This document shows, piece by piece, positions 1,253 through 5,276 of a DNA stretch of 64,000 bases. This DNA is from Solobacterium sp. (GTDB lineage: Bacteria; Bacillota_I; Bacilli_A; Erysipelotrichales; Erysipelotrichaceae). The stretch spans positions 1 to 64,000 of the forward strand of contig JAILLA010000005.1 of NCBI GenBank assembly GCA_024693325.1, in the 5' to 3' direction. Within the stretch, counting starts at the first letter, position 1, and each line of letters opens with the position of its first letter. Under the pieces are notes generated by a model. That model made no database searches, was not told the DNA's origin, and worked only from the letters and a program-made list of their open reading frames with translations. A program made the translations under genes and the position numbers.

Positions 1253-2920
1253 TTAAGCTGCTGCAGGTGCTGTAACTTCGTCGTCAGACAGGTCACTTGT
1301 CAGACCTGTAACGGAAGACTTCGCTGTATTGCAGCAATGGTCTGCCATACGTTCGATGGTGCTGAGAATATCGCAGTATACGGAAGATGCTACATGGGAT
1401 GTGCATTCGCCGTTGACCATACGTGTGTAATGATCCTGGCGGGCTGTTGCTTCCATCTCGTCCATCCTGTGCTCTTTTTCAAGAAGTTTTGCATAAAGTG
1501 CTTCATCATTTGAAACAAAGATCTCAGCGGTATCATCAAACATATCGATCAGCAGTTCCATCATCTGATTGACACTTGCTGCGCCTTCAACAGTCAGTTC
1601 TTCGTTGCGTTCAAAGATCTCATGGAAGAATTCCCAGAGATTTGCGGACAGGTCACCGATACGCTCGATATTCTTGACCGCATCCAGATATGCACGGCAG
1701 TCCTTCTTGTCCTGATCCGTCAGATTCGGACGGATGGATAGCTGGATCAGGTAGTCCGTGATCTGCTCATCAAAGTGGTTGATCGTAGCTTCTCTCTGTT
1801 CAAGTTTGCTGACATCTTCATCCGTTCCCTTTTCATTGATATATCTGGTCGTTTCAGACATATTGTAACGGACAACGTCGACCATCTTCAGAACAGCCTG
1901 CTGGATCGCGCTGATCGCAGCAGAAGGCAGGATCGTAGCAATGTTTCTGTCGAGTTCATCAATATTGACTTCGATGGATGTAGGTTCTTCACCCGGAACG
2001 ATCTTACGGACAAGTCCGACGATCTGATCTGTGAACGGAAGCATGATCAATGTTGTAACTGTTTTGAAGATAATGTTGGCGACCGCGATCTGCATCATCG
2101 GATTCATTCCCGAAGCGATCGACATGATGAATGAAGAATACGGTTTCAGGATCAGCATACCGACTACACAGCCCATCACGTTGATCAATGTATGAAGTGC
2201 TGCAGTACGTTTTCCGGAGATCGATCCGCCGATCGATGCCAGGATACCTGTCATCGTCGTACCGACATTGGCACCGAACATGAACGGAAGCGCTGCGGCA
2301 AACGTGATCGCTCCTGCCTGATAGAGTTTCTGGGCAACACCGATCGTTGCGGCAGAAGACTGAACGGCTGCTGTCAGACCGATACCTGTCAGCATCGCCG
2401 CGATCGGATTATCACTCATCTTGAGCGCGAAGCTTTCAAATGCCGGCATTGCCTTGAGTGCTGCGAGCGCATCACCCATAAAGGCCATTCCCATGAAGAT
2501 CATGGCAAATCCCAGAACGACGTTTCCTGAGAGAATGATCTTATGCTTCTTTGCGAAGCATATCAGCATTGCGCCGACGAATGCGATGTACATTGCATAT
2601 TTTTCAATGCTCAATGAGATCAGGAACGATGTGACCGTTGTACCGATCGCAGCACCGAGGATGATTCCCGATGCCTGTTCCAGTGTCATCAGTCCTGCTC
2701 TGACAAGACCGATCGAGATCGCTGAAGTAGCTGATGAAGACTGCAGAATAATCGTGATCACAATACCGATCAGAAGTGCAGAGATCTTGTTTGATGTGAA
2801 GCGGTTGATGTAGTCGCGCAGCTTATCACCGGCAACTGCCTTCAAGCCATCCCCCATAAACTTGATGCCAAACATGAACAGGCCGAAACCGCCAAGTATC
2901 ATGCCCCAATCCAAACCCAT
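1253..2920 (-). CDS. Na/Pi cotransporter family protein with C-terminal PhoU-like domain
   Basis: From the chosen start the protein has about 555 residues. The N-terminal two thirds is a membrane domain with the duplicated NptA/SLC34 signature: QSSSAT near residue 60 and QSSAAT near residue 187. The last 200 residues are soluble and helical with a PhoU-like pattern. Family members move phosphate with sodium, and several bacterial ones act in phosphate export or homeostasis. The ORF is open 25 codons further upstream, but the start MGLDWG at 2920 has an ideal GGAGGA ribosome site and is where the homologous domain begins. The upstream leader contains a riboswitch-like element (3004-3099), so expression may answer to a metal ion rather than to phosphate. 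It is followed by the HAD phosphatase. Confidence 0.88.
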   Translation of the reverse strand: MGLDWGMILGGFGLFMFGIKFMGDGLKAVAGDKLRDYINRFTSNKISALLIGIVITIILQSSSATSAISIGLVRAGLMTLEQASGIILGAAIGTTVTSFLISLSIEKYAMYIAFVGAMLICFAKKHKIILSGNVVLGFAMIFMGMAFMGDALAALKAMPAFESFALKMSDNPIAAMLTGIGLTAAVQSSAATIGVAQKLYQAGAITFAAALPFMFGANVGTTMTGILASIGGSISGKRTAALHTLINVMGCVVGMLILKPYSSFIMSIASGMNPMMQIAVANIIFKTVTTLIMLPFTDQIVGLVRKIVPGEEPTSIEVNIDELDRNIATILPSAAISAIQQAVLKMVDVVRYNMSETTRYINEKGTDEDVSKLEQREATINHFDEQITDYLIQLSIRPNLTDQDKKDCRAYLDAVKNIERIGDLSANLWEFFHEIFERNEELTVEGAASVNQMMELLIDMFDDTAEIFVSNDEALYAKLLEKEHRMDEMEATARQDHYTRMVNGECTSHVASSVYCDILSTIERMADHCCNTAKSSVTGLTSDLSDDEVTAPAAA

Positions 2921-3003
2921 ATTTTTTCCTCCTGTATAAAAACAGCCGATCCGGCCGCATAGTATCTTCTGATTCTTTCGAAGGAACTCATGCACCGGTA
3001 AAA

Positions 3004-3099
3004 AACCATTATGAGTCTCATCATTTCAAGGCAAACCGGGTATTCTCCGTGATGACGATCTGCCTGCGTAAAAACGCCGATTACTCCCTCATTATGGTT
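3004..3099 (-). promoter_or_regulatory. Candidate yybP-ykoY (Mn2+) riboswitch in the nptA leader
   Basis: Read on the minus strand, the closing stem AACCATAATGAG (3088-3099) pairs with CTCATAATGGTT (3004-3015) at 11 of 12 positions. It is followed by GGGAGTAAT, a GCGT/ACGC hairpin, then AGGCA..TCGTCA and CCGG..TGCC, and GAGAC just before the closing strand. This order matches what I remember of the yybP-ykoY fold: GGGGAGUAG loop, hairpin, UCGUCA and CCGG of the second arm, then AAGAC next to P1. The 3' strand of P1 runs straight into a T run (A run at 3000-3005 on the plus strand), so P1 could itself act in termination. Motif order and pairing are seen; metal identity and the on/off sense are inferred. 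Confidence 0.65.
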
Positions 3100-3273
3100 A
3101 TCATAACATAATTATCCGCAATACATTCAAAACGTTTCGTATTTGCCTTCCGCGATTTGCCGTATATATTTATGTTTTTTCTCACAAACAGGTGCATTAC
3201 CGCCTTTCTGCATATCCGGCATAATGAACAAAACAAAATTCCATCATCACTTATTTCGTTATACAATGTGGAT

Positions 3274-4608
3274 ATGGCAAAAGTACATCAAAAAATCAAA
3301 CTGTCATCGTTTCAGATCATTTTGGGAAGCTTTCTGCTGATCATCCTGGTAGGGACCGGCCTGCTGTGTCTGCCCTTCGCAACAGAGTCAGGACATAGTC
3401 CTCAGTTCCTTGAGGCGCTGTTTACAGCCACTTCAGCGACCTGTGTTACCGGTCTGATCGTTCAGGACACGGCGACCTTCTGGTCCGGATTCGGACAGAT
3501 CGTCATTATTGTACTGATCCAGATCGGAGGCATGGGCGTTGTCACGATGGCAATGGCGCTGGCTGTTATATCCGGCAAAAAGATCAGTCTGTTTGAGCGG
3601 AGCATTATGCAGGATTCGATCTCAGCCGACCAGGTCGGGGGCATCCTGAAACTGACGCGGTTCATCATACTGGGAAGCCTTATGTTCGAACTGCTTGGAG
3701 CTGTACTGCTGCTGCCGGTATTCCTGAAGACCTATGCGTTTACACCGGCGCTCGGACATTCCATGTTCCATGCCATCTCCGCATTCTGCAATGCAGGATT
3801 CGATCTGATGGGTGATGTTGAAAAATACAGTTCATTCACCGCCTATGCCGGCAATATCCATCTGAATACCGTTGTCATCCTGCTGATCGTGATCGGCGGC
3901 ATCGGTTTCAGGACATGGGATGATATCAGAACAAACAAAACAAATTTCCGCAGATACCGTCTGCAGTCAAAACTGATCCTCTGCACATCGCTGATCCTGA
4001 TCGTTCTTCCGGCGGTCTACTTCTTCTGTGCGGAATTCAGTGAACTTCCGTTCAAAGACAGGATCCTGTATTCACTGTTCCAGTCTGTCACGACCAGAAC
4101 AGCCGGATTCAATACCGCTGACCAGAATACGCTCAGCGGGGCAGGACTGATCCTGACGATCATGCTGATGCTGATCGGCGGATCACCCGGATCAACAGCC
4201 GGCGGTATGAAAACCACAACATTTGCGATCCTTTCCCTGTCCGCCCTGTCTGTATTCAGGCACCATGATGATGCCACGATATTCGGCAGAAGAATCCCCG
4301 CGGAAACTGTACGGAACGCAACAGCGATCTTCGTCCTGTATTTTGAACTGTTCTTAGGCGCAGCCTGCATCATCAGCAGAATCGAAGGAATTCCTATTCT
4401 GACCTGTATGTATGAAACTGCCTCAGCGATCGGAACGGTCGGTATGACAATGGGTATTACCCCTCAGCTTGGCACGGTATCACGCTGCATTATCATCTTC
4501 CTGATGATCTTCGGCCGTGTCGGGGGTCTTACAATGATCTATGCTACACTCCCTTCCAGCAGAAAGTTTGCCAGCAAGCTTCCGCAGGAATCGGTTAACG
4601 TCGGATAA
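3274..4608 (+). CDS. ktrB: TrkH/KtrB family potassium transporter, membrane subunit
   Basis: About 444 residues from the chosen ATG. The four pore loops of the superfamily of K+ transporters are visible: TSATCVTGL near residue 50, CNAGFD near 170, TRTAGFNT near 285 and AIGTVGMTMG near 395. Each carries the filter glycine, and the short N-terminus is typical of KtrB. It moves K+ across the membrane with the cytoplasmic regulator encoded next. The frame extends 39 codons upstream, but those residues are not family-like. The ATG at 3274 has almost no Shine-Dalgarno, and a TATACAAT box lies only about 10 bases before it, so the mRNA may be leaderless. ktrA follows after 20 bases. Confidence 0.92.
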   Translation: MAKVHQKIKLSSFQIILGSFLLIILVGTGLLCLPFATESGHSPQFLEALFTATSATCVTGLIVQDTATFWSGFGQIVIIVLIQIGGMGVVTMAMALAVISGKKISLFERSIMQDSISADQVGGILKLTRFIILGSLMFELLGAVLLLPVFLKTYAFTPALGHSMFHAISAFCNAGFDLMGDVEKYSSFTAYAGNIHLNTVVILLIVIGGIGFRTWDDIRTNKTNFRRYRLQSKLILCTSLILIVLPAVYFFCAEFSELPFKDRILYSLFQSVTTRTAGFNTADQNTLSGAGLILTIMLMLIGGSPGSTAGGMKTTTFAILSLSALSVFRHHDDATIFGRRIPAETVRNATAIFVLYFELFLGAACIISRIEGIPILTCMYETASAIGTVGMTMGITPQLGTVSRCIIIFLMIFGRVGGLTMIYATLPSSRKFASKLPQESVNVG

Positions 4609-4628
4609 GAGAGGAAACAGATATTTAC

Positions 4629-5276
4629 ATGAAAAATATATTATTGGTAGGTGCAGGAAAATTCGGCCAGCTGACGGCCAAACGCATGAATGAACTTGGA
4701 CATGACATCATGGCCATTGACAGCAATGAGGAACATATCAACGAGATCCTCCCTTATGTCACACATGCCCTGATCGGGGATGCAACAAAACGGGAATTCC
4801 TCGAAACGATCGGAGTTACCGATTTCGATGTTGCAATCGTTGCGATCGGGGATGACTTCCAGAGCTCTCTGGAAACAACTTCCCTGGTAAAGGAACTCGG
4901 TGCGCCGCTGGTAGTTGCCAGAGCATCAAGCGATGTCCATAAAAAATTCCTGCTGCGCAACGGGGCTGATGAGATCATCTACCCGGAACAGCAGCTGGCA
5001 GACTGGACAGCCATCCGCTACAGCTTCAACCACATCAAGGACTTTATCCCTCTGGAAGGTCCGTATTCCATCTTTGAAGTAGAGATCCCGGAAACATGGA
5101 TCGGCAAAACACTTGCCCAGCTGGATCTTCGCCGCAAATTCAGCGTTAACGTGATCGCTATCAGAAGAGATGAAGGTCTGATGGCAGACATGAACCCGGA
5201 TGATCCTTTCAGCAAAGGCGGGACAGTCCTGGTCATCGGCAAAGACGCTGATGTTCAGAAATGCTTCAAAATGTAA
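4629..5276 (+). CDS. ktrA: KtrA/TrkA potassium uptake regulator (RCK_N and RCK_C)
   Basis: A 215-residue soluble protein starting with the Rossmann motif GAGKFG (residues 7-12) and the acidic IDSNEEH end of the second strand, which together form the NAD(H)/ATP-binding RCK_N domain. Residues from about 140 form a TrkA_C/RCK_C domain (FEVEIPETWIGKTL), which in related KtrA proteins binds c-di-AMP. It forms the gating ring under KtrB. The gene is 20 bases after ktrB, and a bidirectional terminator follows it. Length is normal (about 220). Confidence 0.93.
   Translation: MKNILLVGAGKFGQLTAKRMNELGHDIMAIDSNEEHINEILPYVTHALIGDATKREFLETIGVTDFDVAIVAIGDDFQSSLETTSLVKELGAPLVVARASSDVHKKFLLRNGADEIIYPEQQLADWTAIRYSFNHIKDFIPLEGPYSIFEVEIPETWIGKTLAQLDLRRKFSVNVIAIRRDEGLMADMNPDDPFSKGGTVLVIGKDADVQKCFKM

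Follow-up and report, generated by a model that had tools for sequence, protein, structure and literature searches.

The leader of a Na/Pi cotransporter gene, about 180 bases on the minus strand of the 64,000-nucleotide stretch analysed here (hereafter the window), very probably is a riboswitch that responds to a divalent metal, a three-way-junction member of the yybP-ykoY family that would control this NptA-type transporter through the switch proposed below. The structure is conserved among related leaders, the element is kin to the leaders of manganese exporter genes, and it recurs in front of phosphate transporter genes. The element adds to a known riboswitch class, in a structural form already described, and its target is both unexpected and recurrent.

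Genetic context of the leader

The host genome belongs to the Erysipelotrichaceae; among named homologues, the nearest (96-97% protein identity) come from ruminant-gut MAGs that carry the label Solobacterium sp. Two genes lie downstream of the leader:

1253..2920, minus strand: Na/Pi cotransporter with C-terminal PhoU domains (NptA type), 555 aa; PF02690 197.6 bits, PF01895 74.5 bits, NCBIfam NF037997 213.6 bits
382..1218, minus strand: HAD-type phosphatase gene, 34 bases downstream of the Na/Pi gene; PF08282 155.1 bits

The product of the first gene, which starts with the ATG at 2920, combines Na_Pi_cotrans domains with C-terminal PhoU domains, as expected of the NptA type. To judge by the spacing, the HAD-type phosphatase gene is possibly its operon partner. 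The genes for potassium uptake TrkH and TrkA (window 3157-5276, plus strand) are divergent and have the intergenic region in common with the riboswitch.

A conserved aptamer of the yybP-ykoY type

A blastn search with the leader among 60 relatives returned 26 places in 17 genomes (three of them in the own genome); one of 24 bases (L024), with no match to the model R1 described below, was dropped. From these places and from homologous Na/Pi loci, 30 distinct leaders (alignment A1) were picked by a pattern requiring GGGAGTA and GA[GC]AC, and leaders missed by this pattern were later recovered with R1. GGGAGTA, GAGAC and several L3 and P3 positions are invariant in A1; the first two are partly built in by the picking, the helices are not. 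The structure formed by P1.1, P1.2, P2, P3 and P3.1 is paired in 90.5% of 621 cells, and in at most 53.7% when it is slid by 1-3 columns. Double-sided changes occur at 17 of the 21 pairs, a figure equalled by none of 500 shuffles (shuffled mean 8.4 pairs), and the double-change cells number 77 against 23.0 ± 4.7 in the shuffles. The lone fold of the leader has ordinary stability (z -0.74).

RNAalifold gave a structure without P2, and the structure of R1, whose training rows include the window leader, was named by hand; hence R1 is not blind to expectation. We therefore trained a second covariance model, R2, on the leaders of 45 MntP and P-type ATPase genes from outside the window's genus, their alignment having been made with R1. 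R2 has a single match in the 64-kb window, at 3001-3100 on the minus strand (83.2 bits, E 9.6e-18); a model derived from Mn exporter gene leaders of other genera thus recognises the window leader, and the sequence-only reading, which had placed an aptamer of the yybP-ykoY type before a Na/Pi cotransporter gene, is supported on both counts. R2 finds the same five places in the own genome as R1. Its alignment A3, which was fitted to R1's structure, holds 250 double-change cells against 64.8 ± 9.7 in shuffles, and it finds all 32 phosphate-gene leaders supplied, 31 of which had been pre-picked by R1, the window's own being among R1's training rows. Because of the invariant positions and the covariation in A1, together with the sole R2 match in 64 kb, the leader is more than a product of chance; a chance resemblance to the motif was considered and rejected in view of the shuffles, the slid alignments and the R2 match. 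The elements are as follows:

3100..3105, minus strand: putative -10 box TATGAT immediately before the aptamer, read from the sequence
3001..3100, minus strand: aptamer region, full-length match to R1 (103.6 bits, E 1.7e-22) and to R2, three-way-junction yybP-ykoY type
3088..3091, minus strand: P1.1 5' strand (TGAG), pairs with CTCA 3015-3012; A1 columns 10-13, 98.3% of cells paired
3082..3087, minus strand: loop L1 5' side GGAGTA, the preceding G closing P1.1 (GGGAGTA = 3088-3082); same in 30/30 leaders and in 32/32 phosphate-gene leaders
3079..3081, minus strand: P1.2 5' strand, partner 3022-3020; A1 columns 20-22, 98.9% paired, double changes at all three pairs
3066..3077, minus strand: P2 hairpin; A1 columns 24-27 with 38-41, 82.3% paired
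3057..3064, minus strand: P3 5' strand, partner 3037-3030; A1 columns 44-51 with 82-89, 87.4% paired
3049..3056, minus strand: loop L3 5' side GTCATCAC; C3054 and A3053 invariant in 30/30 leaders
3039..3048, minus strand: P3.1, tip of the P3 arm (GG/CC); A1 columns 60-61 with 79-80, 90% paired
3023..3029, minus strand: junction strand from P3 to P1.2, 7 nt, no P4 helix; 5-8 nt in 217 and 13-18 nt in 14 of 235 distinct leaders of relatives, a set without the window leader
3012..3019, minus strand: GAGA (L1 3' side, 3019-3016) and P1.1 3' strand (3015-3012); GAGAC (3019-3015) in 30/30 leaders

Taken together, these comparisons strongly indicate that 3001-3100 (minus strand) is a yybP-ykoY (Mn2+ riboswitch) aptamer in the three-way-junction form that has no P4. 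All the elements named by the earlier reading are present in the order given on the minus strand: P1 (TGAG/CTCA), GGGAGTA, the hairpin P2, TCGTCA (3058-3053), CCGG (3039-3036) and GAGAC. The arrangement P1.1 - L1 (GGGAGUA opposite GAGA) - P1.2 of yybP-ykoY is found in 30/30 leaders, and the P3 arm is interrupted by L3, with its invariant CA and a single base opposite, which is C in 32/32 phosphate-gene leaders. Conservation of the loops in homologous leaders, on which the earlier proposal had been staked, was therefore found, partly by way of the picking for GGGAGTA and GAGAC. By homology, A3053 would match in position the L3 adenosine that contacts the metal in the L. lactis and X. oryzae yybP-ykoY riboswitches (PMC6754395). 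The window leader does not form a four-way junction with P4; this helix is not defining, and a three-way form of the class exists. In other families, leaders that precede genes for P-type ATPases and Na/Ca exchangers (L153, L159, L163, L167-L175) seem to keep a P4 hairpin and to have a short or lost P2, the reverse of the window.

A long P1 had also been claimed, and this stands for the window itself, where six of the seven outer positions are paired, a count unmatched by the other leaders in a set of 44 distinct genus-level ones; it does not stand for the class, since only the four pairs of P1.1 are conserved and the seven outer positions pair at chance level over the 44 leaders (0.36 vs 0.37 shuffled). 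Part of the outer 5' strand of P1 may even be left untranscribed, because the putative -10 box (3105-3100) is so close. In a relative (L019/L075) the corresponding position carries TTGACA-16-TATGAT; a consensus scan listed no minus-strand promoter in 2800-3400.

Distribution and downstream genes

R1 finds five copies in the own genome and 97 places in 70 of the 392 genomes of a phylum sample; it matches at least 61 of the 70 genus genomes, where the matches listed give as many as eight copies per genome, and at least 187 of 272 genomes of the family. Downstream genes were assigned by a longest-ORF rule and blastp to ten, later eleven, seeds, with Pfam checks on the seeds only; at individual loci, the labels PiT and flotillin depend on a single Pfam-checked example of each and on reading of the letters. 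For 94 of the 97 phylum-sample places a next gene was assessed: P-type ATPase (41), MntP (25) and Na/Ca exchanger (17) together make up 83, the others being Na/Pi (two, one of them the window), SPFH (one), ABC (one) and unassigned (seven, two of which resemble flotillin). The 88 places outside the genus are similarly distributed (P-type ATPase 41, MntP 24 and Na/Ca exchanger 16, together 81; Na/Pi 1; unassigned 6). Relatives of the leader are thus found ahead of genes of Mn2+ homeostasis, MntP or P-type ATPase following 66 of the 94 places; genes for MntP and for cation ATPases are usual targets of Mn2+ riboswitches (PMC6754395, PMC9495176, PMC11434433).

From the better-scoring places, 109 were fetched for the genus and 33 for the family, the 109 partly repeating the blastn places. 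The next genes at the 109 are Na/Ca exchanger (26), Na/Pi (21), an unnamed membrane protein (12), HflK-like (10), ABC ATPase (10), flotillin-like (8), MntP (8), citrate/SLC13-like (7), P-type ATPase (1) and others or none (6). The membrane protein, which has no Pfam match (477 aa in L015), also follows the riboswitch in L023 and further genus loci. SPFH genes, flotillin-like or HflK-like, repeatedly occupy this position (L202, L263, L087, L156, L298, L318 and others), the flotillin-like ones also outside the genus. The four further copies in the own genome lie at G000:C70:24453-24555, G000:C100:14024-14120, G000:C6:1853-1952 and G000:C5:25372-25473, and the genes after them encode an HflK-like SPFH protein, an ABC ATPase, a Na/Ca exchanger and a small zinc-ribbon-like ORF. 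This genome does have an mntP gene, but that gene is not among its five R1 places, a point that speaks against the reading.

Matches to Rfam models

The earlier reading had expected a match to the Rfam model RF00080 well above its threshold. There is none, either at the gathering score over the 64-kb window or at E up to 10 over 2850-3300 (451 bases), and the whole-window Rfam scan and the 451-base leader scan gave nothing beyond one tRNA and a sub-threshold match to RF02617 (SSRC10). However, this test is weak and uninformative here, because the E. coli K-12 mntP leader (L288:3462-3558), at 41.6 bits, also fails the cut-off of 45, a database threshold that carries no biological definition. 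Over the 392 phylum-sample genomes (stricter filters) RF00080 passes its cut-off in none and reaches E <= 0.01 in ten; four of ten sub-threshold places coincide with R1 places. In 14 control genomes it has matches at E up to 10 in nine and passes the cut-off in two. L011, a relative of the window leader, scores 23.2 bits (E 1.2e-4 in 351 bases). A match of 10.1 bits elsewhere in the own genome was discarded as noise. RF00080 (Rfam 15) appears to have a large blind spot, the current model missing a whole branch of the class.

SSRC10 ('Streptococcus sRNA 10'), the only Rfam model that the element matches, does so over its full length (19.7 bits, E 0.21 in 451 bases) at a score below the gathering score of 56, and its name suggests that the conserved element could be an independent small RNA. 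SSRC10 comes from S. pyogenes, where Northern blotting showed it to be a short RNA that has a terminator (PMC3675131); a terminated riboswitch leader would likewise yield a short RNA, and SSRC10 itself precedes a gene for a 'putative calcium transporter' (PMC3675131). Furthermore, SSRC10 matches in this class (31-51 bits, below 56) coincide with R1 places whose next gene encodes a P-type ATPase or MntP at five of 20 loci searched (L079, L080, L081, L092 and L096, around locus position 1480-1616). A yybP-ykoY leader stands ahead of a putative Ca2+ or Mg2+ ATPase in S. agalactiae (PMC4448216). Because of this calcium-transporter/ATPase setting and the coincidence with R1 places, SSRC10 is most likely the streptococcal yybP-ykoY metal riboswitch leader. 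An independent small RNA is thus extremely improbable, and a trans-acting one was rejected, as the SSRC10 matches track transporter leaders. A T-box leader was matched at L004:1049-1246 (82.4 bits against a cut-off of 93), beside an apparent tryptophanyl-tRNA synthetase gene named from the letters.

Two L3 types and metal preference

The L3 tetramer, defined as the four bases after the P3 closing pair, was compared in 235 distinct aligned leaders (A2, A5, A6 and A7; window not included), two strings ('CGTC' and 'ACAT') that are probably misaligned rows being kept in the counts. MntP leaders have AACA in 39 of 43 cases and GUCA in none, whereas GUCA is found in 26/27 Na/Pi, 4/5 PiT, 36/43 Na/Ca exchanger and 25/50 P-type ATPase leaders. 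The same split appears in the genus-level set (MntP 10/10 AACA, Na/Pi 22/23 GUCA; Fisher 1.2e-7, ignoring relatedness). The first L3 base covaries with the single base opposite: GUCA goes with C (134), AACA with U (58) and UACA with A (7).

The split by gene may be due to gene-bound descent or to a difference in metal preference. It is conceivable, though doubtful, that GUCA-type leaders, the window's included, are a variant with another metal preference (Ca2+, or Ca2+ and Mn2+ alike) that serves Na/Ca exchangers, Ca-type ATPases and phosphate transporters, and that leaders of the AACA type sense Mn2+ for mntP. In S. pneumoniae, the mgtA riboswitch responds to both Ca2+ and Mn2+ (PMC9495176, PMC11434433), and a review suspects that metal specificity is altered in some yybP RNAs (PMC7266159). 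SSRC10, a likely relative of the mgtA riboswitch, has a GUCA-type consensus, and the division by downstream gene in the 235 leaders, repeated within the genus, points the same way. However, gene-bound descent of two old leader lineages would produce the same split with the same ligand. The crystallised Mn2+-sensing aptamer of L. lactis is itself of the GUCA type, which counts against a Ca2+ variant, as does the presence of both types among P-type ATPase leaders (25 GUCA and 15 AACA of 50). We would advance only tentatively the idea that the GUCA-type three-way branch of yybP-ykoY has Ca2+ (or Ca2+ and Mn2+ together) as its ligand instead of Mn2+ alone, and that its target genes make up a divalent-metal/phosphate regulon of the Erysipelotrichaceae comprising Na/Ca exchangers, Na/Pi, PiT and SPFH genes. 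If true, this would be a riboswitch branch that commonly controls phosphate transport.

A proposed expression platform

Between the aptamer and the start codon, folding predicts alternative helices next to the ribosome-binding site:

2987..3015, minus strand: predicted competing (sequestering) hairpin, P1.1 3' strand with 2991-2987, T-run in its loop; -6.2 kcal/mol
2951..2999, minus strand: predicted antiterminator helix, 2999-2987 with 2962-2951; -18.2 kcal/mol, also in the MFE of the whole leader
2938..2958, minus strand: predicted intrinsic terminator, stem 2958-2942 (7 pairs), U-run to 2938; -9.2 kcal/mol
2928..2933, minus strand: Shine-Dalgarno AGGAGG, the terminator hairpin standing just before it

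These elements, together with the antitermination used by the L. lactis Mn2+ riboswitch (PMC11087558), make metal-ON antitermination the likely mode of switching. The metal (Mn2+ most likely, Ca2+ possible) would bind between L1 and L3, whose docking would stabilise the short helix P1.1. P1.1 would then occupy its own 3' strand (CTCAT), leaving 2999-2987 free to pair with 2962-2951 as the antiterminator, and RNA polymerase would read into the transporter gene. In the metal-free state the P1.1 3' strand would pair with 2991-2987, the antiterminator strand would be sequestered, and the terminator (2958-2942 and its U-run) would form. We infer the ON direction and these steps from predicted folds and from the L. 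lactis precedent, and their physiological sense from the transporter: high metal would lead to more phosphate transport, that is, to export of Pi or metal-phosphate, or to import of metal-complexing Pi.

Calculations are consistent with this scheme to a varying degree. When the window leader is folded down to the start codon, the antiterminator forms without CTCAT, and the sequestering hairpin and the terminator form with it; the two folds of the remainder are nearly equal in energy (-23.0 and -23.9). The terminator at 2958-2938 is the only terminator-like site in 2800-3400, where shuffles give 0.5 ± 0.8. Terminator pairing in 38 genus-level leaders averages 0.68 when the P1.1 3' strand is included, 0.28 when it is left out, and an intermediate 0.49 when the first 14 bases are shuffled; the difference exceeds 0.2 in 20 of the 38, and the other 18 lack the difference predicted. 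The window is not among the 20: in a short-segment equilibrium calculation its terminator is unfavoured in both states (0.04 and 0.06), so that a switch there would have to act during transcription, by folding order.

Control of translation, in which pairing around 2962-2928 would hide or free the Shine-Dalgarno sequence and the terminator-like hairpin would be incidental, agrees with the weakness of that hairpin in the window (7 pairs, -9.2 kcal/mol), with the antiterminator being favoured there at equilibrium, and with the search in 43 distinct genus-level leaders, five of which gave no terminator. It is nevertheless unlikely, since some hairpin and U-run lies within 130 nt of the aptamer end in 45 of 48 genus-level rows (duplicates included, and counted without a shuffle control; at least one of these, in L069, falls inside the gene) and the L. 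lactis riboswitch acts on transcription. The earlier suggestion that P1, followed by the T-run at 3006-3001, is itself the terminator fares worse. In the window the outer P1 pairs do extend to GGTTTTTT, and pairing at six of seven outer positions is the most among the 44 leaders, but across these leaders the outer positions pair at chance level, and a run of five T after P1 is present in 16 and missing in 28. A better terminator with its U-run adjoins the ribosome-binding site, hairpins of this kind stand near the aptamer end in nearly all genus-level rows, and the putative start site would cut away part of the outer 5' strand. We thus consider termination by P1 very improbable; the T-run is probably the loop of the predicted competing hairpin. 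Metal-ON antitermination remains the reading that we prefer.

Association with phosphate transporters

Among 46 homologous Na/Pi loci the leader (R1) is present in 21; three have no upstream DNA, and R1 has no match in the remaining 22 of the 43 that do. Fifteen of these 22 were read and have ordinary leaders, one with a possible remnant. L044 may retain the riboswitch in decayed form, about 100 bases upstream of the homologous Na/Pi start. Outside the genus, Na/Pi proteins of 28-37% identity follow the leader in two genera (g22 and g186; L098, L307 and L316; L290 and L292), and five PiT phosphate transporters do so in three genera (g186, g185 and g19; L289, L295 and L312; L297; L291), that of L289 with 280.9 bits to PF01384; at four of these five PiT loci, leader and gene are separated by a possible short ORF. 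The link between metal and phosphate raised by the earlier reading thus gains ground, the pairing recurring in related genera and with a second family of phosphate transporters. Because related bacteria repeat it, the pairing suggests that the metal level controls phosphate transport. Both export and import are plausible, since NptA relatives import phosphate (PMC13170248, PMC4913102), YjbB exports it and PitA carries metal-phosphate complexes (PMC11389368).

Literature searches, within the portions of text available, returned no report pairing a yybP-ykoY or manganese riboswitch with a cotransporter, a phosphate transporter or NptA. A 2022 review states that no riboswitch class commonly associated with phosphate transporters had yet been found; of all that its list of classes shows, it singles out as most remarkable that no ligand relates to phosphorus homeostasis (PMC9971707). 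Here a known metal riboswitch class does associate with phosphate transporters, of two families (Na/Pi and PiT) and in several genera of one bacterial family. The pairing permits a direct test of how cells tie metal to phosphate levels, for instance through metal-phosphate complexes.

Comparison with known systems

The window protein shares the order of Na_Pi_cotrans and PhoU domains with the NptA/YjbB cotransporters. The S. aureus nptA gene is under control of PhoPR by phosphate, with no riboswitch mentioned in the available part of the source (PMC13170248), whereas the window gene has a probable riboswitch leader. Fluoride and Na+-I riboswitches have an occasional link to phosphate-related genes (PMC9971707), but their aptamers and ligands differ from those of the window.

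The E. coli mntP leader, for which translational and Rho control are described in the literature, is weakly matched by both models (R2 15.8 bits, E 0.0022; R1 12.9 bits, E 0.0046; 551 bases, filters off) and has GGGGAGUAGC and GCGAGACC in common with the window; unlike the window, it has an insertion (hairpin) at the P4 position and an AACA-type L3. The four-way yybP-ykoY aptamers of L. lactis and X. oryzae, known from crystal structures (PMC6754395), resemble the window leader in carrying L1 and L3 on two helical legs, in the metal-contacting adenosine of L3 and in P1.1 as the switch helix, but they have P4, while the window leader is without it and is missed by RF00080.

The mgtA riboswitch of S. 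pneumoniae is a three-way-junction yybP-ykoY form with an Mn/Ca response (PMC9495176, PMC11434433). Like the window element, the Streptococcus mgtA riboswitch has a three-way junction and is a leader ahead of a metal-linked transporter, and if SSRC10 is that leader, as we would suppose, the L1 and L3 elements are the same (consensus GGGAGuagC, cCGUCa and gaGaC). The predicted expression platform of the window has an extra sequestering hairpin, unlike the Streptococcus mgtA riboswitch, and the latter controls a P-type ATPase, whereas the gene in the window encodes a phosphate transporter.
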